Of a stretch of 64,000 bases of DNA, positions 17,432 to 64,000 are shown piece after piece. Below the pieces are notes generated by a model that was not told the DNA's origin, made no database searches, and saw only the letters and a program-made list of their open reading frames with translations. Made by a program: the position numbers and the translations under genes. The DNA comes from Voacanga thouarsii (lineage: Eukaryota; Streptophyta; Magnoliopsida; Gentianales; Apocynaceae): positions 682,001 through 746,000 of the forward strand of contig JANUWF010003376.1 in assembly GCA_026120185.1 (NCBI GenBank), given 5' to 3'. Each line of letters opens with the position of its first letter. Position 1 is the stretch's first letter.

Positions 17432-17443
17432 CACTACAAGAAA

Positions 17444-18099: not shown

Positions 18100-18135
<36 letters not shown>

Positions 18136-18870
18136 AGAGAGATGCATTGATCATATGGTCGATGTATAATTATGCAAATATGAACACATGCACGTTTAAT
18201 TACTATGAGAGTTTACGTGTACAATCAAAGTTCTATATATTACATTTTATGACATTTGATTAGGGTAATAAATACAATTTTAGGATATGAAAACACGTCA
18301 ATACTAATTAAACTTTTCATATGTTAGTAAGCGTAACAGGATCGATGTTAATTAAACCTAAATAAACACCATGATGAATATTTAGAATTGTTCACTGGCA
18401 AAATATTTCATGCTCTTAATTCATAGCTAAGTAGGAAGTAGTTAAGTGTTGATAGAAATAAATATGTTTTCCCAGTAGAGTATTGGAAAAAGTGAGAAAA
18501 ATGTCATATCCGTCAATAATCCATCTCTAAATAGCGACGGCATCTAACAATAAGGGATTTTAGAGGGATTAGCTAGAGATTTAATATAACTTGAAGCAAA
18601 AATTTTGGCGGAATCTGAAATTCAAAAAATTCGACGCTGATCCCTTTCTAATACAACACAATTAGCGAGGGATTAGAAAGGCACTAAAAATGCATTGAGG
18701 TTGACCCTCGCTAATCCATCGCTAAATGATTCCCTCGCTAATCACATGCTATTTTGCAAGGGATTAGTGAGGGATTTATTTTATTTTATTTTTAGAATCT
18801 GTCGCTAATCCCTCTCTATTAGCAAGTGATTAGCGACAGAAATTTCCCTCGCAAATCCAACGACTAATAC
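17444..18870. repeat. 5' subterminal repeat arrays of CACTA-1
   Basis: Many direct and inverted copies of a degenerate ATTAGCGAGGGATT / AATCCCTCGCTAAT motif. They occur in two blocks (17444-17815 and about 18505-18870). The ~690 bp between carries no motif but has a GT/GA microsatellite (18101-18142). In CACTA elements such motifs bind the element's own TNPA-like protein. The motif-free gap may be a later insertion. Confidence 0.88.
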
Positions 18871-18879
18871 ATCTCTGTT

Positions 18880-21800
18880 CTATCTTTCCCAGACCCGGCT
18901 TCTTCTTTCTCTGTTCTGTCTTCCCCACCCATCTTTTTCCCTTTTCTTCAGCTAATCCCTCTTAAATCCTTTCCAATCCCTTCCATCCACCGACCCACCG
19001 GCAACCTTATCTGAACACATTAGCGAGGGACATCTACCACCACCGCGACGTGACCTTGAGTTCATTCCATCCAAAATTCCATCGGAAACCGCCGCAGTAG
19101 CTCGACATCCACAATCCCCCACCGGAGCTGATATTGTTACTAGTTCTTCAAGGTCTCATCAATTTTCATTGATTGTTGCTTTTTAATTTCGTTACCCTTA
19201 CTGGTTCTTCAAGGTCTCATCAATTTTCCTTGGATGTATGTCAAATCGACTGAACTGTGTAATTATTAGAATTCTGTATGCACCTTAAGAAGATCGCATT
19301 AGGTGGCGAAATAAGTCTCCTATCATTTGGTCATTGTATTATGTATTTATTCTATCTGTGAGTTTAAGTCTTAAGTTTTTCAATTATGATGCTCAAAATA
19401 GTTCTTAAAATGGTGTGATGGTTATTCTAATTTGTTTTAGTCAATTGAGCATATTATTAGTTTAGATGGTTGTTATTATGAATTCTTACAGTGAATATGT
19501 CTTTCATTTGCATAGTATGTTTTGGAGGAAGGTAATTAGTGTTAGTAAATATTTTTTTCTTATTTATTTTTTTAATAGTGCTATGGTTGAGAAGAAGGGA
19601 TGGAGATTGATTGGGTGTTTTGAGTGGTATGGCATACTTGAAAGTTGTCTTTGAAGAATATGTCATTGTCTATGGTGGCTATTTATAGAGGGTTTTGGAT
19701 AATTGAAGTGTTTGTTAGTGTTTAACTATTTGCAATTGAACTACTATTGATGTGAATGTATGGATATTTGATTTGAATAAAAATGTTAGATTTTGATGTT
19801 AATAGTATTGATGTTTGGATTTAGGAAATTCTTAGATTATTGAGTTTGATAGTTGTTAAATTAATGCATTAGATGTAATATTTTAGTAGAACTAATTAAA
19901 AAAACAAGTCTTAAGTCTTTCTTTATAAGGATATAATACCTTAAAAAGTATTATGATGCATGTTTAATAGTGAATTATAAATACGTGAATAGCTTTGTGG
20001 TACTTGATATGTTATAATGTAGTGATATGGTTTTGTTGGAGATTTGTGTGGTGGTGAACTTGTGAATGGCTTTGGTGTGATTTTTGTGCTGTTATATGAT
20101 GTTTTGGAGGAGTGATGAAAGGATATTCATGGCTGAAATCATGACTAAATGAAGGAAGAAGAAAATGAATTCATGTAATTATTACATAAAATCAAAGCTT
20201 AATGGTTATTATTCTAAGCAGACGGTTTTAGTTGTGGTAATTATGGGATTTTCTGCTTTCATCATGGCTGTAATTAGGATGGTTTTATGATGTTAACATG
20301 AGTAGTGAAGTGAATCAAATGAGATGTAAGTAGTAAAATGAAGTTAGAATATATGGAGTGTGAATTTAGCAAGATAATGCTTTGTTACATAGAAAATTCT
20401 TGATGTTTTGCTCCTAGTAGTTTTCTTCTGGTTCAGGATCAGTCCAAAAAAGACTTCATAATTTTGTAGCCAAGGATCTTAGGAGCGTTTTGGCACAAAT
20501 TTGAGGTTAATCGAACTTGTAAATAAAAAGTTATGGCTAAAATACAAAAGTGTGCCATAATAGTGAAAATGCAGGATTTTTTTATTTTTGTATAACTAAC
20601 AAATGCTTATATTGATTCCATTAGTTAAAATTATGGTGTATTTATGTGTGACATGTTAAATATGTGCTAATTGTGTATAATGTTAACTAATGGTATATTT
20701 TGAAAAATCAAGATATACACCATATATTAAATATGTGCTAATTGTACAGGAAGCATAAATGATTATACTATACTCAAGCATGCTATATTTTGAAAAATCA
20801 TTTTATGATGGATAATGCCTTATGATGAAAAACCTTCTTTTGGACTTAACCATACTTTACCTAGAAAACCTTCTTTTGGACTTAATCTTTTGTTTTAGCC
20901 TCATTTGGCCTTTTTAAACTCAAAAGTTCACTGATGGATAATGCCTTTTAATCTCATTCTATTTACTTAAATAATTAAGATTTTGTTCCGTCAGATGACA
21001 AGACTATGTGACACTTATAATTTATTCTACAGTAACCTTATGTTATTGTTACGCACAAGTTAGGCATACAGTTCTTCATTGATTGTTTTGGACAGACGAG
21101 CTATTCTTTACTAAGAAAATCCTCCAATTACATCTTTAAAATCCCGTGAGTGATAGGTGATCATTCCCCGTGAGTGATGGGTGATCACTCCCTATGGGTA
21201 ATGGGTGATTACCCTCAAATTTGGTGTTGTTGATTAAATGTTTTGAGGTTATTTGTGTTTTGTGAGTTTTTTACAATGAATGTTGTATGAATTGTGGTGG
21301 CTTTGTGCCTGGAAAACGTTCAAGTTATAAGGGAAACTCTGTTAAATTTTTTTTAAAAATTGAGGTGGCATACCAAGAGATTCTTATTGATTCTTACCTA
21401 GTGTATTTCCATATGTCCTTTTCATTGTGAAGTTGATCTATGCATGGTGAGGAACATTTTGAATTAAGTTTTGATGGTTGAAGCTGAATGAATTCATGAT
21501 GGAGACTTTTAGAAAAATTCTGTTTGTGTGTTGTTTGTGTAGGATGTTAACTAGACTGTTTGAGAGTATTTTGGTGTGATTTTTTAGTTCATTTTATGTG
21601 TTTTGGTGCAAAGAAAAAGAAATAAAAAGAAGGGCAAGAACAAAGGGTAGTATTAAATTTTGGAAGAAAAGGGATAATGAATATTTATAGCTAACTAGCA
21701 CTGAAAACTAATCTTCATTAATCCTAGATTTTGCTCTACTCCAAAATCACTTCAAATCCACTTTCAGATCCCTAACACATCGAGGAAGGTTTAGGAACCT

Positions 21801-22164
21801 TAGTGTATAGCAAGGGGATAACAAACTACCATTCTAAAGCCTATTACATTAAATAAATGCAAATAAGAATTTTTGTTTTCTAGGTTTGGCAATATTGGTA
21901 GAAAATTCATAACCTTCTATACATAAGTCTAAATCATGTCAAATTTGTTCGAAAATCTTCCTAAGACATTTATCTTCAAATTTTTTTTAAAGGATTTAGA
22001 ATACACAAATCGATAGTTGATAGTATTTCTTCGGTATCATTATTCAATCTTTCTTCCATAATTCATAATGAGTATATTAGGGTCCTCGACCTTCACAATC
22101 ATCATCGTTCCTCATTCGAATTATACAAGTATGAATAAGCTACATGGTTATGGCCTAAATGTAG
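18880..22164 (+). other. CACTA-1 5' non-coding region
   Basis: 3.3 kb without a convincing gene. It opens with a CT-rich, GC-richer tract (18880-19150) that looks like a transcript leader. Next is a local duplication of cttcaaggtctcatcaatttt (about 19146 and 19208). The rest is AT-rich, with three ~24-bp units of a gtgatcactcc type at about 21146-21215. Probably promoter, leader and intron sequence of the transposase gene. Confidence 0.55.
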
Positions 22165-25100
22165 ATGGATGATCGGAGTTGGATGTACAAAAGACACTTA
22201 CAAGGGATTAAAGGAATTACATCTGAGTTTGAACAGGGGTCAAGCAATTCATTGCATATTATTTGTCAATTGGTCCAGCCTCAGTTATAAGGTGTCCATG
22301 TGGAAAGTATAAAAACAAAGCGTACCTTTCCCAGATGAAGTAGAGCTGCACCTGTATAGATTTGGGTTTGTTGCTAATTACCAAAGATGGACTAGTCATG
22401 GTGAGGGTATTAATCCGTCGCCAGCCGCAATAACCGGCACTTGTACGACTGCAGTCGAGTCAAACTCTAATAATCCGTATCGAGATATGGTGATTGATGT
22501 AGTTGCACATCAATTTCCAACTAAACCTTCATCATCAGAGAATGTTGAGGAACCACCTAACTCGAATGCACAGAAATTTTATGACATGCTAAGAGTTTCA
22601 GAAACTCCTATATGGGATGGATGCAGGAATCATAGTATGTTATTAGTTGTTTCTCAGCTTTTGAATATTAAATCCGAAAACAGCGTGTTAGAAAAATGCT
22701 TTAATCAAGTGATGCAATTGATGAATGAGGTATTACCAAGCAGTAATAAGCTTCTGGATGACTTCTATCAAACAAAGAAGTTGGTATCTGGTCTAGGGCT
22801 ACCTGTTCAGAAGATAGATGTCTGCCTAAATGGATGCATGCTCTACTAGAAGGACGACAATGTTAGAAGGGACTGCAAATTCAGTGGACATGGCAGATAT
22901 ATGGCGAAAAATAAAGGTGCAAAGGACAAACAACAAAAAGACGTTCATTTCAAGAAGATGTATTACTTCCCATTAACACTCAGACTGCAGAGACTGTTTG
23001 CACCCTCCACAACAGCAGAGCACATGAGATGGCATGCAGAGAGTCAACCGGAAGAGGACGTTATGAGCTATCCACGCGATGGTGAAGCTTAGAAACACTT
23101 CGACCGTAGTCATCTTGAATTTGCAGCTAAAATTCATAATGTGCGTCTTGGGTTATACATAGATGGATTTTCACCATTTAGAATGTCGGGGAAACAATAC
23201 TCTTGTTAGCCTGTTATTGTTACTCCATATAATTTACCTCCGTCGATGTGCATGAAGGATCCATTTATGTTTTTTACCGTCATTGTCCAGGGACCTAAGA
23301 ATTTGAAGCATAAAATTAATGTCTATCTACAACCTTTAGTAGATGAATTAAGGATGATGTGGTTTAATAGAGTTTCTACATATGATATTTCAAAGAAACA
23401 GAACTTTTGTCTATGAGCAGCACTTCTTTGGACAATAAACGACTTCCCGGCATATGGGATGCTAAGTGGTTGGAGCATAACTGGTAGATTAGCATGTCCG
23501 TATTACATGGAGTGGACAAAATCATTTCACTTGCAAAATGGAGGTAAACATTCTTGGTTTGACTGCCACTGGTGCTTCTTGCCTTTAGATCATCCATACA
23601 GAAAAGATGCTAGGTCTTTCAAGAAGGATAAAGGTCGTGAGACTGCACAACCTGTACAACGCACTTCTAGAGATGGTATGTGGGATAGAGTGTGCCATTT
23701 ACCAAAAATAACCGAGACAGCTGTGGAGCTTAGTAGGGATGATGGCAAAGGCATTTACCATAATTGGGCTAAAAGGAGTATCTTTTGGGATTTGCCATAT
23801 TGGAGAACACACTTAATTCGTCATAACATAGATGTGATGCACAATGAAAAAATGTGCTCGATAATGTCTTTAACACAGTCATGAATGTAAAGGGAAAAAC
23901 AAAGGACAATGTAAAGGCGCGACGTGATCTGTTGGCATATTGTGATAGACCTAAATTATATGTGATTGGCTTGGGTGACGGGAGGACATTAATGCCAAAG
24001 GCTAAATACTCTATTACACCCGAACAAAAGAGACTTCTACTTGAGTGGGTTAAAGATTTGCGACTTCCGAATGGATATGCTTCAAATTTAAGTAGGTGTA
24101 TTGATTTGAATGAGCTCAAAATGTCGGGTATGAAAAGCCATAACTGCCATGTGTTTATGGAAAGGTTGCTTCCAACTGCATTTAAAGAATTACTCCCGAT
24201 GTCAAATTGGAATGTTTTAACTAAAGTCAGTCTCTTTTACCGCGACTTATGTTCTCCTAAACTTTCCACAACTCATATAAAGCAATTGGAAGATAATATT
24301 GCTTTACTCATCTATAAATTTGAGAAGATCTTCCTACCCGGCTTCTTTGACGTGATGGAGCACCTTATGGTCCACTTGCCATACGAGGCTAGGGTTGGTG
24401 GCCCTGTTCAATATAGATGGATGTATCCATTCGAGCGGTAAAATATTGTGTATTATTATATCTATATATACATCTACTATGTGAATCAGTTCTAACTATA
24501 AAAAATGCATTAGGTTCTTATATCGTTTGAAGACCAAAGTTAAAAATAAGGTGAGAGTGGAGGGATCAATTTGCAATGCTTATTTAGTTGAAGAGGTATC
24601 TACATTCTTCTTCTATTATTTTGAGCCACATGTGCAACTCGACAAACAGCTATGGCTCAAAATGATGACGGCGTTCATGATACAAACTCAAGTGACACTG
24701 TGTTGTCTAGATGCACCGTTCCAGTGAGGGTTTTAGGAAATATTCAGAGTAGATATCTTACCCCAAATGAATTTAAGACTGCCACAAATTATATATACCT
24801 AAACTGTGAAGAAGTTCAGCCATACATTACGTAAGTATACCACCATTTTGCACATTTCTAGATTTTATACGATAATACTTTGAACAAGTATCCTTATGTG
24901 TTCGTTTTGGTAATTTTTGGAAATTCAAAAATGACTTGCAGTTGTATGAGCCGAGTATAACAGACCCTGAAGTTGATAGGAGAATAGAGTCGGAGTTTGC
25001 AAGATGGTTTAGGACTTATGTGAGTTGAGCACATCCAAAATGAGACTTTAAAATAAATTACATTGATAATGAAGGTGCATTAACACTTTATTTTTTGCTA

Positions 25101-25846
25101 GGTTCATGATCCATAAAATCAAGTGATTGAACAACACTTAAAAAGCTTGGCCTAGGGACCTTCGAGACAAGTGAAATACTTCCATGGCTATTTCATAAAT
25201 GGTTTTAGGTTCCATACACATGATCGGTCATTCAGAAAAAAAAAACAATTAACAGCGGAGTTTGTGTTAAATGCGACAGAGATAGTGCCAACGATTATTA
25301 TGGAGTGTTGAAGGAGGTTGTTGAACTTCAGTTCCCTGGGACTCCTTGTTTAAAAGTTGTCCTATTCAAGTGTGATTGGTTTGATCCAACGCTAAATCGG
25401 GGGGTTAAAATTCATCCTCACTACAAATTTGTTGACATCAACTGCAAGAGAAATTACCCAAAATATGATCCATTTGTGTTAGCTTAACAAGCAACTCAAG
25501 TGTATTTCCTATCCTACCCGAGGAGCAAAAGACCAAAATCTGATTGGGTAGCTGTTTCTAAATCGAAAGCTCGACATGTCATTAATGCACCCGTTGTCGA
25601 GGCACCATATCAGGAGGAAGTAGATGATACGCTGGCAATGAATTTATGTGTGGAGGATGACAACTTTAGAAGATTAGCATATGAGTTCGATATTAGAGAT
25701 ACAATCGATGATATGGATTCGGGTTTAATGATAGAGGAAGTACAACTGAACAATGAAAACGAGGATGAGGAAGAAGAATGGGAGACAGGGTCCTCTACAG
25801 ATGACGATATGGAAGGTTACTCATCCGATGATGACAGAAGTCAATA
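22165..25846 (+). pseudogene. CACTA TNP2-type transposase, broken
   Basis: Catalyses excision and insertion. From the ATG at 22165 (MDDRSWMYKRHLQG) a transposase-associated domain is visible (CPCGKYKNKAYL). Then Transposase_21: FPLTLRLQRLF, VRLGLYIDGFSPF with a candidate catalytic Asp, TPYNLPPSMCMK, FPAYGMLSGWS and IRHNIDVMH. DUF4218 follows (24170-24437, ending YPFER), an intron (about 24438-24513), then DUF4216 (about 25160-25490, VVLFKCDWFDP and YDPFVLA). The acidic tail ends at 25844-25846. In-frame stops (for example near 23090 and 23416) and frameshifts (about 22245 and 23860) make it a pseudogene. Splice sites look intact in places. Confidence 0.9.
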
Positions 25847-25998
25847 GACAGGGATCAAGTTTAACTATTGTATAGAAATAATTATTAGTTTTGCTATCGT
25901 TACATTACAAGCATTTTACTTTTCCATAATACTTTTAAATTTTTTTTTCTTCTCCCAAAATATGACCATTTTATGTTTTTAAATAATTCCAGTTACAT

Positions 25999-27678
25999 AT
26001 GGTTTCCGATGCCTCACCCGATGATCAGTTAGCGACTCATGAGTCATCGAGGGCAGATGAGACACCGTCCCCGAGCATCGCGCCATGTATACCTGCTCCA
26101 CAGCCATTACTCCCAAATGAGGACCGATCAGAGCAAGTCCCTACCCCGATCCCAGGTTCTTCGAGATCCACAGTTGGCGCTCCCCATACTAATGATACGC
26201 GATTGCTGATTGAGCCAGTTGGTGACTCGTAAGTCGGCTACATAATTACTTATTATACGCTTATCTGAATTTTCAAAATTATAACTTTGTCTTATATTAC
26301 AAAATCTATTTTCTCATAACAGGTTCACACATTCGGTTCAATATATGAGAGAGATAGTTGAGATTTTTAGACGACACTACACTGGAGCCTATGCTACCTT
26401 CTCACAGGTTCCAATTGATGTTCGGAACATGTGGTTCAATCTTTGGAGTGTGAGTTCGACTTGCAATTATTACTTGTAGTATTTTTAGTACTTTTAATAT
26501 GTTTTCTTACTTGTAACTACTTACTAATTGCTACTTTGATTTTGCAGTCTTTCTTCTGTTGGCACCCCGAGAATACCACACAAATCCGGGCTAATTGGGA
26601 GGAAAAGTGTAAGGCTAGACTTTCCGACATATTGTCGAAGGTTCGGAAGAAGTATGGGGGTAGCTGCCCCAAGTGGATTTCTCCAGACCATTGGGCTACT
26701 TTATCGGAGCCTTGGGGGTCCGATAGGTAGCAACGTATTTCTTTCGCTACTAAGCGGAATAGATCCACTGGTGAGGCATCACACACAGGAGGATCCATTT
26801 CTTTTGCTGAGCATGAGGAGCGGACAGTAAGTACAAAAATTTTTTTTGTTTGATATATCCGCTATTTTACACTTGGTCCATCATCAAAACTAACATCTAG
26901 TTGTTTCTTGTTACAATGATAGCGGAGACCGTTAGGTCCTAACTTCATTTACATCGACTTCTTCAGATGCACCCACATATTTCAGGACGAGCCGAGGAAG
27001 GGCTAATATGTCAGTGATCGATCGCGCCATACACTTATAAGAATACACAATCTTATACGTTTTTAAGTTTAATATTATTTATATTTTAATCGCTAATTTT
27101 AATAAAGCAATTTTATGCTTGTTTCCTTGCCCCAAATTCGACAGGATATTGTCACTGCTATTAGTGAGCGTTATGCGCAGTTGGGTTCTCAAACAGATTC
27201 TACGAGCATACTTACACCAAGTAGGGTGCCCGATAAGAAGACACTGTTCGTCGAGGTGGATGACAGAGCGTGCAAGAAGGAGCAAGTATACAGATTAGGC
27301 TCCGAGTCTTCGAAGGTGAGACGGAGGTTACAGCATCCATCTTCGTCTGAGTCATCGACTTCTTCTACCTTGTTAGATGTGAGCCAACTACAGAGAGAGT
27401 TACACACGGAGAGGAAGAGGCGGGAGAGAGTTGAGCATTAGGTACAGGTATATCGGAGCCACGGCCAGAGCTTGACTGAGTACCTGACGCTTATGTCTCA
27501 GAATTTGAATCTACCTCCACCACCGCCGATACCAACTGTTCAGGAGGACGCTGCTAAGGATAAGCAGGACTTTGTCATCAGTCCTCCAGATTCACATCCT
27601 AGTCATCAACCAGGCCCTTCCGATCCACCCCCACCCCCTCCGTCGACTCTAGCATCCGCACCGATTCCTACTTCATAG
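25999..27678 (+). pseudogene. second CACTA gene (Transposase_24, TNPA-like), broken
   Basis: Starts at the ATG at 25999 with a Ser/Pro-rich segment. A Transposase_24 (Ptta/En/Spm) domain follows: FRRHYTGAYATFSQVP, VRNMWFNLW, then across an intron IRANWEEKCKARL and KYGGSCPKWISPDHWATL. A TAG (26728-26730) replaces the expected next codon. Further exons (from about 27145) give a charged, coiled-coil-like stretch and a proline-rich tail (PPPPPIP, DPPPPPPSTL) ending at 27676-27678. Another TAG near 27439 breaks the frame. In this family the product binds subterminal repeats and assists the transposase. Position downstream of TNP2 on the same strand fits. Confidence 0.82.
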
Positions 27679-27897
27679 TTATGATATTTAGACTACATTT
27701 TTATGTATTATTCATATTTTTTTCATTATTTTATTTATTTAGAATATTTAGACAACATTTTTATATATTATTCATATTTGTCATTATTATACTTTTTTTT
27801 TATTTAATTGAATTTTGGCATTACTTTGACCAATGAACTTTCTTCTAATACAAGACATTTTTTAAAATATTTTATAAATATTCTAAAATTATACAAT

Positions 27898-28430
27898 ATT
27901 AGCGAGGGAACAGAAGGAGTCGGCCAAACAATCCGTCATTATTCGCTCGCTATTAGCGAGGGATTAGCGACAGACTTCCAAACCATTTATTTTAAAAGAT
28001 ATTTCCAAAGCTAATCCCTCACTAATTAGCTTGGGATTAGCGACAGTCCTTTAAACAGTTAAATTAAAAAGGAAATATCCGTAGCTAGTCCCTCACTAAT
28101 TAGCAATGGATTAAAGACGGAAAATTCCCTATTTACAAACATTTTACTTTTATTAATTATTAAGATATCCATCGCTAATCCCTTTCTATTTAGAAAGGGA
28201 TCTACGATGGATAGAAATAAATCCCTCGCAAATCTGTTTCAAAATTCATTGCCGAAGTCATTGACTGCTGACAAATTCCCTCGCAAATCCATCGCTACTT
28301 GCGAAGGAGTTTTAAATCTGTTGCAAAAATTTGCCTTTGCAAGGAAGAAATTAGCGAGGGATTTTTCCCTCGCTAATCTGTCGCTAAAATAAATTAGCGA
28401 CGGAATTGGCCCTCGCTAATTCTCTGTTTT
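27898..28430. repeat. 3' subterminal repeat array of CACTA-1
   Basis: Dense direct and inverted copies of attagcgaggg / ccctcgctaat motifs, matching the 5' arrays, immediately inside the right terminal repeat. Confidence 0.9.
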
Positions 28431-28442
28431 CTTGTAGTGTTA

Positions 28443-31204: not shown

Positions 31205-32829
31205 ATGGTTAAATCTTCAAAATTGACCAAACTATAGTAAAAAAAGGCCTAGAAAAGGAAGGAAGTCATTCCCGAACTCCCTACTTCTCAGACCGATTCT
31301 TGAAAACCAACTCCTGAACAAGAAAGCTCAGAGCCCCAGGTACCCTATTTCCTTTACCCTAAAAGTGAATCTGACTTTAATGACTGGGTTTCAAGAAACC
31401 GAACTATGATTATTGGTTACTACATTAATCTAGAGTCTTTCTTAAATTTTGCAAATATTTTGAATATCTTTGAGTCTTTCGGGTAGGGAGCCCTGTTATC
31501 TGTGGATGAAAAATTATACAATACTCTAGTGTGGAAATTTTATGCAAATCTAAGAAAGGGCCGATTAGAGGAGACTGGAGGTGGTTTTATGATCAGATGG
31601 TATACCTCGAGAGTTGGAGGAAAGAATCTTGAATTTGATCATCGCTTATTGAACAGAATATGTGGTGTTAGAGATGGAGGCATTCAATTTTTTGAATTGA
31701 ACAAGTACCCTGAGAGAACTGATCTGTTTGATTTGGAGAAATTTGAAAGAACATTCACTAGTAGGAGAAGCTTTAAGAATTCAAGCGAGAGGAACATTAA
31801 GTGGTTAAATAGGCTTGATAGAATTTTGCACCACATAGTTTCAACTGTGGTGGTACCGAGTTTTGGTCACAAAACGTCTGTAAACATCATACAAATGGTA
31901 ATGATGTTAGCGCTATTCGATAATAGGCCAATAAGTTTTGGTTTTCTTGCTGAGAAATTGATGATGCAAATAAAGGACACCTCAAACAAGGCCCTGCCCT
32001 ATGAAGATTTGTTAACCAAAGTGTTCAAACACTTCAATGTTGACTTGAGTTCGATCACTCCTGCTCCTTCAAAAATGAATGTTTACAACTTTGAGTCATT
32101 TGAGAAAATAGGATATATGCAAGTGAATAATGAGTGAAAGCTACTTAGAGATGTTTCTAGCAATAAAAAGAAAAGACTATTAAAGGTTAAGGCCGAAGGG
32201 AAGACTACTCAACCTATAGGAGCAAAGAGAAAGGATGAGATAGAAGTTCAAGTGCAGTTGTCTAACAAAGGAAACAGAGAATTCATGATATCGGAATCAA
32301 TCAGAACATTCAGAAACCATAAATTTGTTGGCTGTTAAAGTAGACAGCCTCAGTTCAAAAATCCAAAATTTTGGGAAAAGGTTAACTCTTGTGGAAAAGA
32401 AGGATCACAATGCTGAAAACATTCCTGCTAAATTAGCTTCTTCCAAAGAACAAGTGACTGAAGAACAAACTGCCCAAGAGAAAGAAAATGCCAATAAACA
32501 AGATGTTGAGAAGGAAAATGAGAGGGAGGATGAAAGAATGAAAGAAACCCAGATTGAAGAGGAACCAAGTAAGGCAGATAAAATGGATAAGGAACTAAAA
32601 GAAAAAGACCTTGGCCAAAGCAGACAACTGAGGAAGATAAACAAGGAAGGCAGACACCCGTGAGTGAGGAAGAATCAGCACTACCTGCTCCTACTATGAC
32701 TACTCACAAGCTTATTTCCTCGAGAAAAAGACAAAAACATATGGTGGTTAAGAGGAAATCCAGCAGACTTGCCGGACAATTTAAGAAAACTGGCAAAAGA
32801 GGAAAATCTGAGCCTGTCATCATCTCTTG
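31205..32829 (+). pseudogene. additional 3' ORF of SIRE-like Copia
   Basis: Lies between pol and the 3' LTR on the same strand. From the ATG at 31205 (MVKSSKLTK) the frame has early stops near 31232. It is open from 31502 to 32137 with a region like the 'putative plant transposon protein' domain of SIRE-type ORFs (VWKFYANLRKGR, GFMIRWYTSRVGGKNLEFD, LLNRICG). After a frameshift there is a highly charged, Glu/Lys-rich coiled-coil-like segment (32325-32640). A basic C-terminus (SSRKRQKHMVVKRKSSRLAG) ends at 32827-32829. Such ORFs are often called envelope-like by position. I see no signal peptide or membrane segment to support that, and its function is unknown. Confidence 0.78.
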
Positions 32830-42619: not shown

Positions 42620-42831
42620 TGTAAGTTTCTAATTTCGTCCGTAACAAATAGAAACGTCCACCCATGGACTGATGAAGTGTTGGGGTCATTTTTTCGCAAC
42701 TCGGAAGTTGAAGTTCTCCTTGCATGTTTGAAAGAGATCCACACATGAGAGGCTAATGGCAGCAATGGAAGGCTTTCAGGTGGCGATCGGGTTTGGATTT
42801 CACAGGTTAATCTTGGAAGGCGAATCCCATA
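42620..42831 (+). pseudogene. RNase H-like (RVT_3) fragment, left part
   Basis: The plus-strand frame gives MAAMEGFQVAIGFGFHRLIL followed by EGESH. This matches the helix-strand region of plant RVT_3 RNase H-like domains (…AI.LGF..VI.EGDS). It is interrupted by CACTA-2 at 42832. Removing CACTA-2 and one ATA copy continues the frame in phase into 51432-51495. The domain occurs at the ends of plant LINE polyproteins and in host-like genes; which applies is unclear. Confidence 0.65.
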
Positions 42832-43276
42832 CACTACAAGAAAAAAGGAGTTTTCGCAACTATATTATTTACGTCGGATGAATTTGGTTGCAAATGAGCA
42901 TTCAATTACATCGAAAAAAATATTCGTTGCAAATATCATGTACCTTTAATATTATGCAATGAAAATTGATCAATTGCAACAGAAGTATGTAGTTGCATGA
43001 ACCATCTTTATTTACGACAAAAATGATAACCTTTTGCAATGAAAAAAATGATAGCGATTATAATTTGAATATTGATATTTTATTTTTTAATTTAATTTAA
43101 AGTAGTTTTAAAAACAAATCTTAAGTGAATTTAAAAATAAATTTAAAATTAATAATATTTATTAACATTATGATTTATAAGTAAATATTAATCAAGTCTT
43201 GTAATTATCCATTTATTTGTGGGGAAAAAAAGTACCAAAAGAATATATATTAAAAAGGTTTCAAAGAAATTTTTGC

Positions 43277-43620
43277 CACTACAAGAAAAGATGGTTTCCG
43301 CTACCATTCTTTTGTGGGGGATAGATTTTCGTAGTAAATAAATTATTATTTTCAATAAAAATAATTTTGCTGCAAATAATTAAGTATTTGCTAGTTTTAT
43401 AATGAAAATTTACCATTTTTAACAAAAATAAACGGTTGAAAATAAGTCTATTATTTTCGATGTAATTTTTCTTAATTTGATCACAATTATATTTTCCTAA
43501 TAAAAACTTATATTTCCAACAAAAAATGTTGGTTAGAAATAATTTTATTATTTTTGAAAAAACATTTTATCTTTTACGATGACTAATTTAGTTGCAATCA
43601 AAATTTCAAATTAAACTATA
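43277..43620. mobile_element. second CACTA-like left end nested in CACTA-2
   Basis: CACTACAAGAAAAGATGG at 43277 followed by attttc/gaaaat-type subterminal sequence unlike the gttgcaa motifs outside it. No matching right terminus was found, so the inner element is truncated or its right end has decayed. Confidence 0.6.
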
Positions 43621-44499
43621 TATAATGTTATTTTTTTTACTTTATTCTGTTAAATTTACTCTCTCTTTTTTTTTTTTTTTTGGAGGGATAGTGGTTTTTC
43701 TCACTCACTAATTTTGAAATGGCTTTTTTTAGATAGTAATTGTGAAATGTTTATAAAAAAATTCAAAAGAAAAATAAAAAATTAAAGTATTGTTTAGGGG
43801 AAAAAATAGAAAAACTTGGTGGAATCAAAGACCCCCCACGTTGCAACAACTTAAAAAAAAAATGGAAAAAAAAAGTTATTCACAACAAAAAAGCAAAAAG
43901 CAAAACTTCATAATCAACATTTTGGTATCCTCAGTTTGCTCCCAACTGTGGTTGAGCCCCAAAAAGGGCATCTCAAGCTTCTTATAGTGCTGCTTCTTCA
44001 AGAAAATGAAAATCCAAGAGCCATCTCCATCTCGAGGTTTCTTCTCGGCTCGAGTCTGGTTGATGGTGCTTACTGCTAGCACTCTCAATCGCAGGGGTAT
44101 GGTTGGTTGGGGTCGCCATCTCTATTTTTCCTTTCAAGCCCTTCTCTGCCTTCTCGGATTTTCCTTTCCCTTGCTCCCAAAACATCTATTCCCTCCAAGC
44201 CCGACAGTTACGCAATATGGAATCCTAAATATGATCCAAAAATGCTATGATATTTCTATCCGAAATTGTCTACTAAACGCTGTTGCGAGCTATTGCAATC
44301 CTCGAGTAACAAGTATGTTCTTTTTCTTTTTTCTTTTCATAAGATTGTGTCCTAAAATCCATTGAAAAAACTTGTGGGACTGCATCAATTTGTACTCATT
44401 TTCTAATTCTTTTCTCTCTATTAATTAATTGATTCTTCATTTTTTTTTTTATTTGGGTGGGGGGAGGGGGTCGAAGTGTTCATTTATCTCTAATGCTAA
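43621..44499. other. unassigned interval inside CACTA-2
   Basis: T-runs (43665-43681, 44438-44449) around a less AT-rich block (43920-44290) that could be a captured exon or leader. No protein family recognised on either strand. Confidence 0.4.
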
Positions 44500-45210
44500 A
44501 ATGCTTGTTACACTAAACCCATTTGACATACTCAAGAACCAGCCAAAATTAAGAAATTCTAGTATAAGAGAAACTAAAATTATACACTGCCATTTACTAA
44601 GGACCAATAGGTTTAGTTTCAGTACTTTTACATCTAATATTCTGCTCGATTTTTACATTAAATGTGGTAGTATTGATTTTGCATTTAACTTATTTGAAAA
44701 AATTCCAAAGCCAAATATGATTCCTTGGAATTTGACAATTTGGGTTGTGATAAGAATGTTCTTTTGAGGACTCCTGGAGATTCTTTTATATGATGCATTA
44801 TGTGAGTGTGGATGGTCATTGTTATACTTATGGGGTTTTGCTTTAGCTTTTAGAGCTTTGGAATGTCTATTGTGGGGGGAGCAGGTTTATGGGTTTGGGA
44901 TGAAAAATGGTTTTTTTTTTTTTTTTTTTTGAATGGTTATATGAGGACTTGAATGATAGATTTGTTTTTTGGTTGTATTAGGTTCAAAGATGCTTTGAGG
45001 GTGTTCTACGATGTATTCTGTGGGAATGTGGTCTATTAAAACTGAGCTGGTCTTTGATGTGTTTGTCTGTAGTTTTCTTTTCGTAATGTACTCCAAGTGT
45101 AGTAGTTTGGAGGAATTTTATGAAGCCTTCAATATTCTTGAAGGCAAAGATACTGTTTCATGGTCCTCTATTATTGCAGGCTTTGTTAGTAATGTAAGTG
45201 TAGCTAATGC
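44500..45210 (+). pseudogene. captured pentatricopeptide repeat (PPR) gene fragment
   Basis: PPR proteins bind organellar RNA. Visible repeats are IIHCHLLRTNRF, NILLDFYIKCGSIDFAFNLF then EKIPKPNMIPWN, and after gaps and frame changes RFKDALRVFYDVFCGNVV, MYSKCSSLEE and EGKDTVSWSSIIAGFV. The last blocks belong to later repeats, so an internal part is missing. Frames shift at about 44765 and 44880, near the T-run 44909-44930. The set is PLS-type (SW at repeat ends). It is clearly a decayed partial copy. Confidence 0.85.
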
Positions 45211-45641
45211 AACTGATTGCTTTAAAAAAAAAAAAAAAAAACATCTTCAAATGGTTGTTTGTTAGAAGTTGGATCACTTAGGGAAATATGATCTATTTTA
45301 TTTCGGTTTCTGATAGTCTCAATTTATACCACTTATGTTATGCATTAAGTTGATTGTCGCTCTTGTAGACAGTTAACTATTGCTTTTCTAATGAGTTTTG
45401 AACCCTTGTCTCCTCCTCTACTCTTTGAGGTTTCAGTAAGCTTTAATGTTGCGCTACTATGTCCACATGCACAATATCATTTTATTGCTTTGCTTAGTTA
45501 TATTCCACTAATGGTTAGCGTCAGACATCATGTGGACCTTAAGCAATGGAACTTTAGGTTCTCACCGATAAATGATGATGTTTCATCTTTGTGATGTAGC
45601 ACTAGGAACACCTTTATGCATGCAAGGCTAACAAACACTAT

Positions 45642-46345
45642 CTCCTTTATCATCACACACTGGCAGAACTGAATAATATAGTTCTTTTGACTGAGAAACA
45701 TAATCCTGATGACCTATCAAGGAATTCACGGAGGCAGCTTTCTTGTTCTAATGAGACAGCGTTGCCAAGAAAGGTTTGGGTTACCATTTTTTTTCTTTTG
45801 TTTTTGAATTGCTGTTCGTGGTTGCCACTTAAACTAATTTGCAACTAGGTTTTAAGATATTTCTCTTCCTCTCTTCATCCCTTCCAACCTGGTTATATTT
45901 CCTTTATGGTTTAATTATTGGTTTTAGTTTGAAATCTTATAGTGGACTGTGTTATAATATCTGATATGTGTCTCAACTTTATCTTTTGTAGGTTAAAGGA
46001 GGCTATGTCACACATGCTCAGCTTGCTGAAGAATGGCTATTGAAGTCTTGCAAGATTCTTGAGAATCCATACTGCGGTGATTCTTATGCCAGTGCAATAA
46101 AAGTAGCTGGACAGTTTCTTTGGGCTGGTTCTAAAATGGATCCAGTGAGCTTGCAGTTTTAAGTAATGTGCTTTCTGCCTGGGTAATTAGTTATTCCTAT
46201 AGCGAATTGAGATGCCTCTTGCCATATGGTTATAGGTGCGAGACACAACAAAGAAATTGGTTGAAGCATAGAATTGGGCAGAAGTTGTGAGAGCTTGCAT
46301 CTCTAGAGTGGAATCTTGTTCTCATCATTGCAAGTGTCTTACGGT
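45642..46345 (+). pseudogene. captured KDM5/JMJ17-type demethylase fragment (PLU-1 region)
   Basis: Plant JMJ17-like histone demethylases carry a PLU-1-like helical region. Three exons with GT/AG borders are seen. 45642-45773 reads YHHTLAELNNIVLLTEKHNP. 45992-46144 reads AQLAEEWLLKSCKIL, then SYASAIKVAGQFLWAGSKMD. 46236 to about 46345 reads VRDTTKKLVEA, stop, NWAEVVRACISRVES. The exon 2/3 join gives DPVRD in phase, as in the family. A TAG interrupts exon 3. No catalytic JmjC domain is present. Identification rests on remembered family pattern (PLU-1, WAGSEMDPVRD type). Confidence 0.72.
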
Positions 46346-47500
46346 GTTTGTTCTTGTGACAGATTAGAAGTCAATTCTTGTAGCTGAGGTGGAAATTTCT
46401 AAGATCTCATTTGGATAAACAAGTGGAAATCCTTTGCTGCTAAGGTTTGCTTTGTAGTCCTTTTTTAGTTTAAATCTTCTACTTTGTTCTGTACTTCTTT
46501 TTTTTTTTTTTTTAATTAATCGTTTGCTCTTAGTTTTCTGCATAGTCCAGCTATTTCTTAATTTTCTGCTTAGTTTTGTGCACACTTGGAGGAAACTGAG
46601 CTTTATTTATCCTATTTTCTTAGTTTTCTATCTGTTTTATATTTTCCTCACAACCTTACTCTTTATATTTTCCCCCTCTTATCTAGAAAGATCCAAGGGG
46701 ATTAGTTTCTTACATTGTTTACCAGTCTTAACCAAAATGAAACTTCTCAATAGTTGCCACCCTATACAATCTTGATCACAATGTGTTGACAAAAGGGAGA
46801 AAATAATACTTTTCCTACTTGCTCAACTATTTTCTGGGTTAATTTGTAGTATGTATAGTTGATGCTTGTTTTTATATACTCCCTTAGTGCATCTATTATA
46901 CCATACCAGTACTTTTGTCATCAAATTTACCTGAACAGAAGAAAATTTACATATTTAGCTATTCAATCTCTTTTAGAAAATGAAAAGAATCATACTATTC
47001 ATTTTGGTCTCTCCTCTAATGTATCTATAACCCATATACAGTTGTTAGAATATCATGTCATTCTTTCCCACCTGTTGCATCTCTTCTTTCTCGATTTAAT
47101 TTTTTTTCTTGCTATGTGAACCATCTTTAGCACCTTCCCATCCTTTCACTTAGGGGAAAGCTGAGAAGTAGATGGAAAGGTGCTATAGATGATCATCACT
47201 CACTGCTGTTGTAAATGTCCACATATATAATTATCCCTAATATTGCATGAGACTGAAAAACTGATCATCCAAAACCTAGAACATCCATATGCAAAACTAG
47301 CCCATAGAGCATAAAATATGAAAATACACTAGCTATATTTAGCATGGTGAAGCAAAATGCGTTTGAAATTGGACAGGTAGCTTTTGTTTGTTGTTTTAGT
47401 CAATTTTTTAGCCAGTTATTGCTTGATTTGCTACTAGCATTTGTTAAATTCTACAGGTAATCTTGTATTGTTCTTATTTATTAAATTCTGAAGTTTATTA
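46346..47500. other. unassigned interval between captured fragments
   Basis: AT-rich, with a T-run (46498-46513). May contain intron sequence of the flanking captured genes. No coding match recognised. Confidence 0.4.
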
Positions 47501-49817
47501 CAGAAATATGTATAACTGGCTGCATCTTTGGAGGGGCTGTCTCCAAAGGTCCCACTGTACAAAGTGACACAAGGAAATGAGCCTTACTTTTTCACAACAT
47601 ATTTTTCATGGGATCCAACAAAAGCTATGGTATTTTCCAAAATAAATCTCCTTTTAAATTCTGCAGCTACATTTCTTTCTTAGTACAATTAGTCTATTCC
47701 TTGTTGAAAAGCAATTTAAAAACTGTTGATAGCCTGAAGAGAACTTGGAATTTTTTTTTATAAATGGTGTGAAACATTGTGTGGTGTACACTAAACAAAA
47801 GATTTGGCTAGACTCTGATGAGATGCCTAAGGTGTTAATAGAACTCGAGCTAACATGCTCAATTTGGGAAGTAACTTTCACAGCATTACATCGTGGTCTT
47901 GTTTTACTTGTGTCTGTTATATTGGTGAACATTTTCCTTCTCACCCATTATATGACAGTCAATTTTTTTTTATTAGCATGTTACAACTTTATTTTTCATG
48001 TAACAAGCACATGGAAACTCATTCCAAAAAAAGGTTATGCTATTTTTTTGGGATTGTTCATGCTGCAGAGGGAAATGCTTACTGAGAATTTATACAAGAT
48101 GCTTCCCATGTGTTTTGTATTTTCAAGATGTTGGAAAACCATTTCCTTGTCTTGGTCTATTGCATTGTTCTTCTGTTTCTTACTTTAGGACCATTGAGAG
48201 GCAACCTGTCATGATTTTTATTTTATAAGTTATTTATTAATGGCATTTAATGTGCTGACTTCATCATTTCCATTATCATACTTATACATCTGATGTTTAT
48301 TCCTTTTAGGATTGAATGGCCTGGTTTGTGTTATATTTGTGAACACATCATCTGTTGAGTTTTTGTAGGAAGTATATTGTTGTATGGAAATAATAGCCTT
48401 TCACACCATGGGCTGCAATCCCTTGGTGCCTTATCTATGAAATGTACACTACGTTCTCAATGAGGACCTGCATTGTCACCCCCTGGCACTTTGCTGTAGA
48501 CATTACCCTTGTCTTGAATCTTTATAAATAGTTGCTTGGGCCTATTTCTTTTACAAGCTCAGAGTTTTAGCCCTTTTTATTTCGTCATCCTTGGTTATAT
48601 GCTTGTCTATCCATTCAATGTTGGATTTCATACTTGACTTCTTGTTCCCAAGATCTTTTTCTTCACCACAGTCCCTGAATTCCTCTATCTTTTTGATTGT
48701 TTATTGGGAAGTAATATCTAGCAGGCAGCATCCGCATCTAATAGTTGTATAGAATTAGATTGGATGTAAATGAACTAGCTTATAGTTTATCTCTCTCTTG
48801 CTTTATTTTGTCATCCATCCTTATTGTTATGGGTTAGAAGTGTGTGAATTTGAAAAACAAGATGCGACTGTTTTACATAAAATTTATGTTATTTCCCTAG
48901 TTAAGGGAAATAAGTTCTAGAAAATTTCATATTTTTCTTGTACCTCTTATTTTTGTCTTTTTGTTCATTTTGATTTTCTTATAACCAGGATAGGACCAAT
49001 GGAACAAATCAAGGAGGACCAACTTAAAGAGCTTCAGCCTTAGCCACCCTAAATTCTGCATTTAATTAAACTCCTACCCCAAAAGCTTCTTCTGCAACAA
49101 GGTAAGCTAGACCAGTCAGGGATGACAAAGAGCTGCTACAGTTGCTACATTATCTTCTGTTCTTACTGCTGGAAAGAAACGATCACCTGAAGCATCTCCA
49201 TCTCGACCAAGTAGAAGTCCACCATCAGAAACTAGTAGTCCTGGTAATTAGATAAATTCCATTCCTTGACCTATTGATTGTATAATAATGGAAACTATAA
49301 GACCATATGCCACAAATATTGTACTCTTTTCCTAGAAAAAAGAACATTGAAAACTACATATATTGAATCTATTTATCTATCCATAGCATGTAGGTCATTT
49401 GGTAGGTTTGTGACTGTTATCTTGCAAAGGGTTGCTAGTGATGAGGCATTTGCTACTTGAACCTCTGAAGGAGTGAGATGGCATAGGTTTTCTTGTTAAA
49501 GCACCATCTGTTTTGTCATTGCCTAGGATGTAAGAGTTTTTAAGCATATGATATATTTTACCCCTGCTTGCAGGAGAATCCAAAAATGAAAATGCTCCTA
49601 TAAAGGTTGAAGGTTCTAAAGAAGCTTCAGAAGTCCAGGATACTGAGACAGATCAGACCAATGGAGAGGCTTCAGAACCAAAGCCAGAGCCAGAACCAGA
49701 AACAAAGCTAGAGCAGGATGAGAATGGTGATGAAAGTATCCAAACTATATTAGTTATGAACAGCTCAAGGATAAACCAGAGAACCCTGTCACTGGCATCA
49801 ATTTCAAAAGGAGAGAG
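47501..49817 (+). pseudogene. captured villin gene fragment (last gelsolin repeat, linker, start of headpiece)
   Basis: Villins bundle and sever actin filaments. Exon A (about 47501-47629) reads QKYV, stop, [16 protein letters not shown], then [20 protein letters not shown], the end of gelsolin repeat 6. Exon B (about 48989-49243) shows DRTNGTNQGGPT, then QRASALATLNSAFN with the Q codon now TAA, and AATVATLSSVLTAGKKRSPE in a shifted frame. Exon C (about 49574-49817) is the acidic linker (KPEPEPETKLEQDENGDES) and the headpiece start (SYEQLKDKPENPVTG, INFKRRE, frameshifted). The C-terminal KKGLF actin-binding end is absent. Introns are kept, so capture was from genomic DNA. Confidence 0.85.
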
Positions 49818-50055
49818 GTTGGTTGATTCATTATCCTATCACTTTTATTGATAGATGGACTGATTTACCAATTTTTCTCTTTTTCTGCATTACTATTATA
49901 TGAAGTATTCCGATACAGCAAACCACGTGATGAAATTTGACTTGTAAATAATAACATCTATAGCATTTGAAGCAAAAGACTATTCTGTAAGTTAAGAAGT
50001 TATTTTGGACAATTTTTTGAGTTGCTAAGTTGAACTAGATTTCTATTTCTTCTTG

Positions 50056-50221
50056 TAGGACATGAAATATAAAATGAAAACATGATTACCATAATTTCAA
50101 CCCCATAATTGCAAAGATGTACAAGGGTGCTGGTGGTGACATGGATGGTGCCATGGATAATGATGGTTTTGCTCCTATCGGTGGCAGCGGTGCTGCTCCT
50201 TTGATTGAGGACTTTGACTAA
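50056..50221 (+). pseudogene. captured HSP70 C-terminal exon fragment
   Basis: After an acceptor-like cttgtag (50051-50057) the sequence gives [20 protein letters not shown] and then [13 protein letters not shown], stop at 50219-50221. Plant cytosolic HSP70s end in [13 protein letters not shown] ... GPKIEEVD. The final EEVD, which binds TPR co-chaperones, is EDFD here. Only the lid tail is present; there is no ATPase or substrate-binding domain. Confidence 0.87.
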
Positions 50222-50585
50222 GCTTTTGTTGTTTGCTTCTTTTGTGTTTCTTGTCTTACTCTTAGCAAGAACAATTGTGGATTTAATTTGTCAAAGTGAA
50301 TTTATTTTGTCTTTAGATTATTAGGCTTTGGAACTAGTACTTTATGTAGAGCCTTGTTCTTCCTTTACAACAAATTTTTAACACAAATACCGGGGGAAAA
50401 GATGCTTCTTTTACAACAAATTTTTACTCTACTTTCTATTATGTTGTGTTCTATTCTGTTTCAAGGATTCTGCATAGGATTTCTACACAGGATTAAATTT
50501 GTAAATCTATTTGGCTGCCCTGCTAATGAGATTGTAGAATGCCTACTATAATCATATGTCACAATAGTAATCATATGTTGTAAAT

Positions 50586-51010
50586 TTTGAGAAATATTGA
50601 AAAAAAAAAAAAGTGATGCTAAATTTTGGGACACTACGGAAAAATTAGTGTTGTGAAAAAGGGACGCAATCATACTTATAGGTCGTAATTTGGGGATATT
50701 TTTTTGGGATGTTATGGATTATTTCATCACTAAAAAAGGGGACAGAGTCATAATTACGTGTCGTCATTTTAAGGACATTTATATAAAAAAGTGTCACCAA
50801 ATTTGGGACACTACACAATCATAGTGTAGTAAAAAAGGGGACTCAAGCGTAATCTTTGGTTGCTAATTTGGAGACGCTTATACAAAACGTGTCATCGGGA
50901 AAAAAAAATCTATATAATAAATATTAGTAAATTAGATGACACTAACAAATATAAGTGTCGTAAAATTAGACCCACTTATATAATAAGTGTCGGAAATTAT
51001 GCAACATAAA
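50586..51010. repeat. CACTA-like subterminal block of a different style
   Basis: Repeated aagtgtcg(t/g)aaatt and gggacactac motifs in both orientations. This is typical of another plant CACTA subfamily and unlike the gttgcaa motifs that follow to 51428. Probably the right-hand remnant of an inner or older element. Confidence 0.65.
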
Positions 51011-51431
51011 ATTTTAGAACGCATAGAAGTAGGGATACATTTAAAAGTGATGGGAATTAATTAAATATTTATTTAAAAATAAAAATTCATTATAATATTA
51101 AATATTTGCAACAAGCAATAATTGTATTTACGACAAATAAAATCCGTTAAAAAAAAAGCCTATTTGCAACGGCCATGCAATGGAAAAAGAACCGTTGCAT
51201 TTAGTTTGGATAGATTTGAGGTTTCTTGCAACGAAAAAAAAAAAGTTGTAAAAAGAGGTATTTTTCGTGGAAAATAGATTATTGCGACGGTGTTTATGGT
51301 TGCAAAAGCAATTGCAACCCCCTTCAATAGCAACGACTATTTTTCCGTTGCAATTGATCATTTACGATCAAATCCATCATTTTTCTCACGAAATTCAATG
51401 ATTGCGGAAATTTATTTTTCTTGTAGTGATA

Positions 51432-62495: not shown

Positions 62496-64000
62496 ATGCA
62501 TAATGGCGAGCAATCCATAACAACCACAGGCACCGGAGACATCTGAGCGACCCCCAATCCGTGCCCTCTGGGGAGTCTTTGATCTTGCGGTTACCGGTGG
62601 TACTCAGGGTACTACTGTGGAGCAAGGGGGGCAGTCCTCACCCCCGGCGTCTCAGTCGATGTCCACCTCACTAACTGCCATTCGACATACTATGGAACAG
62701 TGTACTGGTGAACTCTTACAAGGACTTATTCCACAGTTTGATACTATTTTTCGACATTTGCTTCAGAATGAGCTACAGCAGTTTGCGCAGAGATAAAGTA
62801 TGCAACCTTTCACTCAGCCCTTGGGGTACCCTGTACCAGGGACCAATATGGCACCAGCATACCCCATGCCGTCGGCTAATATTGCACCTACTTATGGCTC
62901 AGTACATCTCTTGCGAAGAGACACATCCTTCCCAGCCACTAGGGGGCATTTCCTGGCAGAAGTCCGGGCCTAACAGCAGGGTTACCAATGACATATGAAG
63001 CGGTTCCCACCTATGCTAGGGGAAACATGCCACCTTTTGGGGGGCAATCACATTACCCTGCGCCGTACCCTCCTGTATATCCGTCAGTCACAGCGGCTAA
63101 CCCAGGGCAGGGCACTGGCAGCACCGAGCCCTCCATAAGGCAAGGTCCTCGGCCTTTCATGCAAAGCCCCTCACCTCAGTTTCAACAGACGTACCAGCCG
63201 ATGGATATGGTAATGCGGCAGACACGAGATCGGCTCATATACCAAAAGCCTTACCCCGAATGGGTGGATTCCATGGCTGTGCTCCCCCGAGGGTACAAGT
63301 TGTCGGAGTTTTCAACATTTTTCGGCGAAGACAATAAGTCCACCATAGAACATATCGAAAGATTCACAGCACAATGTGGTGAGTTGAGAAACAATGACTG
63401 GCATAAGTTACAACTGTTCTCATTATCATTGACAGGAGCAGCGTTCACATGGTATGCAAGTCTAATGCCTAATTCCATATATTCCTGGGCGGACATGGAA
63501 AGAATGTTCCACCAACGTTTCTTTAAGCCTATACCGGAAGTCTCCATTGCAGACCTTTTGGCCATCAAGCAAAAGGGATCAGAAGATGTGGCGGATTTTA
63601 TCGAACGTTTCCGACAAACCAAGTCCAAATGTACAACCCAATTGCCTGAAACAGAGTGTGCACGAATCGCCATTAGTAGGATGCATCCGCAGCTCAAAGA
63701 ATGACTCATTCTCCAAGACTTCTCGGATTTATCTCGATTATTATCTCATGATGTCCGAATAGAAGAGATGATCAAAGAGAAAGAGAAGAGACGTTCTGTC
63801 AAGTTCTCTCATGGCCAGATAATGATATCCGTCATAGATGATATTAACGAGGAGGAAGAAGAGCAGGCCAGTGAGATGATGGCAGCAGAGTTGGTAAAGG
63901 GCGCATCCTATATGTGTCCTCACTTGAAACCCGGCAAGGGAAAGGAGGAAATGGCCACATCAGGAACCACCTATTCTTTTGACGTTTCAAAAGCGGAACA
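62496..64000 (+). pseudogene. Gypsy gag, frameshifted, incomplete at window end
   Basis: Capsid protein of the element. The N-terminal part lies in one frame (about 62555-62795, FDLAVTGGTQG, LLQGLIPQFDTIF). TAA at about 62794 interrupts it, and coding moves near 62960 to the frame open at 62988-63704. That frame has a Pro/Gln-rich stretch, then the Retrotrans_gag domain: YPEWVDSMAVLPRGYKLSEF, FTAQCGELRNNDWHKLQLF, TWYASLMPNSIYSWADME and FIERFRQTKSKC. TGA at 63702-63704 is followed by further in-frame coding (LILQDFSDLSRLLSHDVRIE) and an acidic stretch (NEEEEEQASE) to the window end. Protease and pol are outside. Confidence 0.88.

Follow-up and report, generated by a model that had tools for sequence, protein, structure and literature searches.

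A CACTA element of Voacanga thouarsii carrying pieces of four host genes, probably assembled stepwise and moved as a unit

Results

Element E1 and its ends

The stretch of Voacanga thouarsii DNA analysed here comprises 64,000 nucleotides (assembly GCA_026120185.1, contig JANUWF010003376.1, positions 682,001 to 746,000; hereafter the window, which sits on contig C1822 in our numbering) and contains, at positions 42832-51428, a CACTA element that we call E1. Between its ends, E1 carries pieces of four host genes, namely, a PPR gene, a KDM5/JMJ17-type gene, a villin gene and an HSP70 gene. The genome (1.35 Gb in 1848 contigs) was searched for copies of the element and for donors of the pieces, and the counts given below cover the loci that were read. 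The features of E1, with terminal inverted repeats (TIR) and target site duplications (TSD) indicated and the evidence given in brackets, are as follows:

42829..42831, no strand: left TSD, ATA (flank sequence)
42832..43276, plus strand: outer 5' end, TIR CACTACAAGAAAAA and subterminal TTGCAAC-type repeats (missing upstream of the inner end in copy C1013)
43277..43553, plus strand: relict inner CACTA 5' end, CACTACAAGAAAAGATGG (end matches, copy C1013)
about 44490..45210, plus strand: PPR gene piece, decayed (Pfam in sister copies, genome DNA search)
45246..46333, plus strand: KDM5/JMJ17 piece, with parts of three exons, two whole introns and part of another (match to C621 gene; 5 and 4 bp of microhomology at the junctions)
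46329..47357, plus strand: element interior between KDM5 and villin, about 1 kb (in C908 without KDM5, to 47238; in C1822b without villin)
47350..49933, plus strand: villin piece, exons and introns up to just before the headpiece exon (match to C641 gene; 3 bp of microhomology at the 5' junction)
49934..50091, plus strand: linker between villin and HSP70 (first ~95 bp common to C139, in a part of C139 read without HSP70 match)
50092..50335, plus strand: HSP70 C-terminal tail, stop codon and 3' sequence (candidate donor C641:3865138-3868027, minus strand, 85%)
50556..51428, plus strand: 3' terminal module, subterminal repeats and TIR (copy comparison, repeat count)
51429..51431, no strand: right TSD, ATA (flank sequence)

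The outer ends are exact: CACTACAAGAAAAA starts at 42832 and its complement stops at 51428, the first 14 bases being identical at both ends, and the flanking TSD is of 3 bp (ATA/ATA), as is characteristic of the CACTA superfamily. When one mismatch is allowed, the 13-nucleotide end of E1 occurs five times in the window (0.17 expected), and TTGCAA occurs 10 times in the terminal 825 bp of the element (mean 0.25 and maximum 3 in 2000 single-base shuffles). With TIRs beginning CACTA, a 3-bp TSD and subterminal repeats, E1 belongs to the CACTA (En/Spm) elements. When the flanks are fused with a single ATA, one open frame spans the insertion site, and this restored empty-site frame has a weak RNase-H-like match (RVT_3, E 0.058, short of the cut-off). 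Because the ends and the TSD are exact and the flanks rejoin into a weakly RNase-H-like frame, the insertion is genuine; what it landed in was probably itself mobile.

A preliminary description, made from the letters of the window, had already placed CACTA ends with an ATA TSD at 42832..51428, which the open frame restored at the joined flanks bears out, and had seen no transposase. None was found in the eight pieces of E1 scanned with Pfam (the element was not scanned in all six frames), nor did tblastn with three TNP2-type pieces from a second CACTA of the window give anything against E1 at E up to 1. A TNP2/Transposase_21 protein is required only of autonomous CACTA members. Repeated GTGTC/GACAC words at 50615-51010, within the 3' module, resemble by eye the subterminal repeats of another CACTA-like type.

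Captured gene pieces and their donors

For the KDM5 piece, a protein search with a 56-residue exon led to P0001, a JMJ17 homologue of 1852 amino acids (83% identity; one of three candidates) with six Pfam domains, the accessions of which we take to be those of JmjN, ARID, PHD, JmjC, C5HC2 and PLU-1. A 291-bp DNA query from the same piece returned 11 rows at 10 places in the genome, that is, nine element copies and contig C621, on which (read in part) a 15-kb stretch encodes residues 447-1592 of P0001 in order. E1 45246-46333 is 92.9% identical to this gene, the match stopping inside an exon. Another match at 86%, on C1822, was first taken for the KDM5 donor and turned out to be an older element copy. 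The villin piece, E1 47350-49933, is 93-94% identical to a villin gene on C641 (near 0.67 Mb), the start of which was seen by eye; of its five frames run through Pfam, three gave Gelsolin and one the villin headpiece, both above the cut-off, and one gave nothing. The villin query had 20 rows in the genome. Pfam and PDB searches with the villin and KDM5 pieces of E1 themselves gave no or weak matches only, and protein searches found no match for villin (24 candidates) or PPR (10 candidates).

The HSP70 tail matches HSP70 chains in PDB; its DNA match to an HSP70 gene begins at 50092 and its stop codon lies at 50219-50221. A DNA query of the tail and its flank (50040-50420) returned 41 rows at 71-100% identity, with 40 of 97 candidates scored. 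As 34 of these rows begin at query bases 1-3, upstream of the HSP70 match, most of them are probably element copies; HSP70 would then probably be the most widespread capture of the four, and an old, widespread family of HSP70-carrying elements probably exists. The stretch C641:3865138-3865372, 85% identical to the tail, adjoins a stop-free HSP70 frame near 3.87 Mb, which makes this gene a candidate third donor. The PPR piece falls short of the Pfam cut-off in E1 and is above it in two sister copies, C1013 and C530; its query returned 27 rows, 14 of them at 82-85%. Upstream of it lies a 125-codon open frame (43988-44362), partly kept in C530 and with no Pfam match below E 0.05, which is possibly a fifth captured piece.

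All four pieces had been recognized in the preliminary description, at 44500-45210 (PPR), 45642-46345 (KDM5/JMJ17), 47501-49817 (villin) and 50056-50221 (HSP70 C-terminal), and all are present, with borders adjusted as listed above. The pieces do share the plus strand, an arrangement expected 1 in 8 times by chance and hence unremarkable. Introns are indeed kept: donor splice dinucleotides are intact at 12 of 14 positions in E1, 13/14 in C904, 14/14 in C4, 13/14 in C1028, 13/14 in C1831, 12/12 in C1829 and 10/12 in C731.

The four-gene chimera at seven loci

Pieces of all four genes were found at seven loci: the window, C904, C4, C1028, C1831, C1829 and C731. Both ends are visible at six of them (C4 runs off its contig), and at all six the 3-bp TSDs match (ATA, GTG, AAT, AAT, AGA and AAA), so that the chimera was mobilized as a whole. 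The preliminary description had proposed to look for copies that share both the fragments and the ends of E1; the fragment set recurs at six further loci, and five of these have both ends visible, each with a TSD of its own. Together with donors located elsewhere (C621 and C641), this multiplication as a unit supports the classification of E1 as a non-autonomous Pack-CACTA, in agreement with the transduplication proposed earlier.

C1829 and C731 have the same 910-bp deletion in villin. At C239 (TSD TTT), position 45533 is joined directly to 49478, and this copy is probably a deletion derivative; C1103 tracks E1 only to 46711, with an insert. Among six module trees, C4 and C1028 pair in all five that hold both, C1829 and C731 in five of six (the mid-segment tree being the exception) and E1 and C239 in three of four (the exception being the short HSP70 tree). 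These pairings are in keeping with joint inheritance of the modules; forks in the short trees are weak.

Copies that lack pieces and the junctions

Copy C908 corresponds to E1 42902-45250, followed by ~245 bp and then by 46329-47238, where the locus ends; it contains PPR and lacks KDM5. Of the ~245-bp segment, 160 bp recur in C887 (93%) and 35 bp in C530 (94%), and C530, C887 and C908 are basal branches of the 5' tree (midpoint root). Since C887 and C530 have this older segment and all three copies are basal, the KDM5-less state is probably ancestral in them, and ~245 bp of older element DNA most likely gave way to the KDM5 piece. At the two KDM5 junctions, TTCAA (5 bp) and GCAA (4 bp) are common to the element and the donor, and the 5' villin junction has the microhomology AAG (3 bp); with random breakpoints, microhomologies of 5, 4 and 3 bp have probabilities of 0.009, 0.026 and 0.071.

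On the villin side, C1822b tracks E1 to 47357; beyond this it has a 673-bp stretch of its own, then the 3' module, and neither villin nor HSP70. A segment of 298 bp of these 673 bp recurs behind the villin piece of C139, the match of which to E1 stops at 50028, before HSP70. In C1099, the villin piece is longer (C641 4851-8360) and has the same 3' border, HSP70 is present as well, and no PPR or KDM5 row lies nearby; given this longer piece, C1099 cannot derive from the E1 type. The simplest reading of these copies is that two element lineages were joined at 47350.

Within E1, a second, inner 5' end at 43277, absent from the preliminary description, is a perfect CACTACAAGAAAA. The PPR-carrying element C1013 (L060, 1639-3018) has its 5' end at the equivalent position, with the mutated terminus CACCG; its PPR piece begins at 44521 and the outer 445 bp are absent. 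The relict end probably marks where an older PPR-carrying element of the C1013 type began. No TIR relic beyond chance was seen at the seven other junction points, which include the KDM5, villin and HSP70 borders: the best TIR match there differs at 3-4 positions, which is also the case in 261 of 300 windows drawn at random from the interior.

Decay and methylation footprint

Coding decay and the loss of C in the CHG context were assessed in the KDM5 and villin pieces against their donors, in the 19 copies with such exons. In E1, there are 48 nonsynonymous and 12 synonymous changes (ratio per site, pN/pS, 1.22), seven new stops and two frameshift indels; pN/pS is at least 0.93 in 18 of the 19 copies, and none of the 19 is free of new stops. 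The coding pieces from KDM5 and villin thus decay neutrally, without purifying selection.

Over the 19 copies, a donor C has become T in the copy at 590 of 3444 CHG, 579 of 11757 CHH and 152 of 675 CG sites; in the opposite direction, a C of the copy is T in the donor at 53 of 2301, 213 of 11996 and 89 of 454 sites, respectively. Within CHG, CCG is spared (4/84) compared to CAG (350/1680) and CTG (236/1680). The excess holds for E1 alone (CHG 48/299 vs. CHH 47/1037; odds ratio 4.03, P 3.6e-10), and all seven copies tested singly behave alike. On the donor side, the KDM5 and villin stretches show no such excess against E1 (CHG 3/204 vs. CHH 15/1055, P 1), nor a significant one against any of the seven copies. 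Silenced plant transposons are characterized by CHG methylation that is lower at CCG; the pattern suggests that E1 has likely been long silenced by transposon-type CHG methylation, with no sign in the sequence that silencing spread to the KDM5 and villin donors. At CG sites, C is lost to a similar extent in both directions, as would be expected if the donor gene bodies carried CG methylation; changes of other kinds are frequent at CG sites as well (0.148 vs. 0.025).

Other transposons in the window

The window is transposon-rich. The second CACTA (17432-28439; TSD TTA) is bounded by CACTACAAGAAAG and CACTACAAGAAAA and has TTAGCGAGGG as its subterminal repeat; its TNP2-type domains (Transposase_21, Transpos_assoc and DUF4218) lie in separate frames. 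It is not the direct parent of E1, as the subterminal repeats differ: TTAGCGA occurs 10 times in its two terminal 400-bp stretches and not at all in E1. Its host sequence is, by eye, a copia integrase frame. Further mobile sequences are a copia-like gag-pol (4580-8295; named by eye), a reverse transcriptase on the minus strand (15741-17368; RVT_1), a Transposase_32 (PF20167) protein (31487-32134) and a Retrotrans_gag frame (62943-63704).

Discussion

Taken together, these observations point to E1 as a CACTA that was assembled stepwise, from copies of genes and from joins between element lineages, then moved as a unit, has no transposase that we could find and decayed, a reading to which we assign a probability of roughly three in four (0.77). 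An older PPR-carrying element, the 5' end of which would be the relict at 43277, may have gained the outer end at 42832. A break inside the PPR-carrying element would then have been repaired on the template of the KDM5 gene, with switches at 4-5 bp of microhomology, such that ~245 bp were replaced by 1.09 kb. The half containing villin and HSP70 was presumably joined from another element lineage at 47350, a switch to which the 3-bp microhomology and the longer villin piece of C1099 would point. The resulting chimera would have transposed to several places, seven of which were read, the transposase presumably being supplied from elsewhere, and silencing through CHG methylation would have been followed by decay without selection on the coding pieces. 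Of this, the four pieces, the two donors that were read, the piece-lacking sister copies, the junctions, the TSD of each copy, the CHG loss and the coding decay were observed directly; the enzymes, the repair pathway and the relative order of the gain of the outer end and the villin-HSP70 join are inferred, as is the silencing itself.

Several points weigh against parts of this scenario. Pieces can be lost: C753, which the 5' tree nests in the KDM5-carrying clade, shows no match to KDM5, and C908 might in the same way be a product of KDM5 loss, although this is unlikely in view of the older segment common to C887 and C530. The junction breakpoints were set by eye on decayed sequence, and the probability for the third junction lies above 0.05. 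The join of two lineages is tentative, given that one lineage that later suffered a deletion at 47350 would present the same picture. The parents of the pieces were recovered unevenly, the KDM5 and villin donors having been read and the candidate HSP70 donor being known by coordinates only, while no PPR donor was found among the 27 genome rows. In C139, pN/pS is 0.52 (20 nonsynonymous and 12 synonymous changes). Splice dinucleotides are kept at 87 of the 94 aligned positions over seven copies, slightly above the expectation from base divergence, which leans mildly toward kept splicing. Finally, the 19 copies are related and their pooled counts are not independent; the single-copy tests therefore matter.

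How the gene DNA entered the element is the question on which the published models differ. Tandem fusion, in which two neighbouring elements are mobilized from their outer ends with the host DNA between them, is described in section 9 of PMC8903248 as the Arabidopsis Pack-CACTA route and is favoured for plant CACTA capture there and in the review PMC13317346, whereas PMC8978399 cites abortive gap repair as the route of CACTA capture. As the source of all gene DNA of E1, tandem fusion appears unlikely to us. The inner end at 43277 fits this model, and a perfect relict end, from which C1013 starts without the outer 445 bp, is just the residue expected of a fusion; but of the relict internal TIRs that the model of Catoni implies at capture borders, the one at 43277 is the only one beyond chance, with none around the KDM5, villin or HSP70 junctions. 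Furthermore, the KDM5 piece most likely replaced internal element DNA with microhomology on both sides, whereas fusion would add host DNA between two elements at the donor gene. That the four pieces are instead a degraded native gene neighbourhood, flanked by transposons by chance, would account for the single strand and the retained introns, but we regard the idea as having next to no chance: the pieces are not neighbours in this genome, with the donors on contigs other than that of E1, KDM5 apart from villin and HSP70 and the latter two ~3.2 Mb from each other. The same set recurs at seven loci, six with both ends and TSDs of their own, and the empty site is a continuous frame. The dispersed copies and the donor locations lead us to reject a native neighbourhood.

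The preliminary description had argued that four co-oriented donors in one element raise the chance of a chimeric transcript or of small RNAs acting on the parent genes, a suggestion that appears unsupported at the DNA level. A chimeric transcript or protein with a host function is very improbable, even though the orientation is shared, donor splice dinucleotides are largely kept (completely so in C4) and the fragments of soybean Tgm-Express1 are reported in PMC1947982 to be spliced into chimeric RNAs. Against it stand the 1 in 8 chance of the orientation and the CHG decay, which suggests long methylation of E1, while the KDM5 and villin pieces, with their stops, frameshifts and pN/pS, lead us to reject a chimeric protein. 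The largely kept splice sites would still permit splicing into a chimeric RNA. That E1 gives rise to small RNAs by which its donor genes are silenced in trans is somewhat less far-fetched but still improbable: the CHG loss inside E1 resembles the footprint of methylation on silenced transposons, but where they match E1, the KDM5 and villin donors have no significant CHG excess, so that long-lasting CHG methylation seems not to have reached them.

E1 adds a member to the Pack-CACTA kind, with an unusually clear before-and-after series; our literature search, a weak negative, turned up no published account that we recognized as describing it. A close parallel is Tgm-Express1, likewise a CACTA with intron and exon pieces of several unrelated genes; according to PMC1947982, it has five host gene fragments, so that the four of E1 are no record, and resides in a gene intron, in contrast to the transposon-like frame that E1 occupies. 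Unlike Tgm-Express1, E1 belongs to a multi-copy family with piece-lacking copies and two donors that were read, and is known here from DNA. The Arabidopsis and maize Pack-CACTAs of PMC8903248 share with E1 the CACTA-type TIRs, the TSDs and the genic DNA, which in maize often stems from more than one locus, and include examples compatible with fusion; the same source reports maize Pack-TYPE elements with several loci, Pack-CACTAs having the most. E1 differs from these elements in that its KDM5 piece shows in-place replacement with microhomology, not tandem fusion. E1 also resembles the animal Pack-TIRs formed by gap filling with microhomology or FoSTeST, for which PMC8277862 describes internal breakpoints, small losses of element DNA, short microhomology and multi-copy cases, although E1 is a plant CACTA with donors on other contigs and several rounds in one element. 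Grapevine Cactavine-5, as described in PMC2528002, is also a CACTA with a PPR piece, but in the opposite orientation and downstream of a transposase frame, whereas the pieces of E1 come from four donors, are mutually in sense and accompany no transposase that was found.

CACTA gene uptake is still mostly a model, and whether captured pieces drag their donors into silencing is debated. Here, the presence in one genome of donors, of copies that lack a piece and of copies that carry it makes captures readable as before-and-after pairs with borders resolved to the base, and the CHG test makes donor silencing by captured pieces countable from sequence alone, with no sign of it for the two donors tested. 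In broader terms, the CACTAs of this genome may form a recombining pool, in which host gene DNA is acquired in place through microhomology-guided gap filling, not tandem fusion, and whole cargo halves are exchanged between element lineages, and in which the cargo is CHG-methylated early and the donors are left untouched; we hold this view tentatively, at a little short of even odds. If it is true, four-gene chimeras would arise from separately loaded elements, and capture would cost the donors little.

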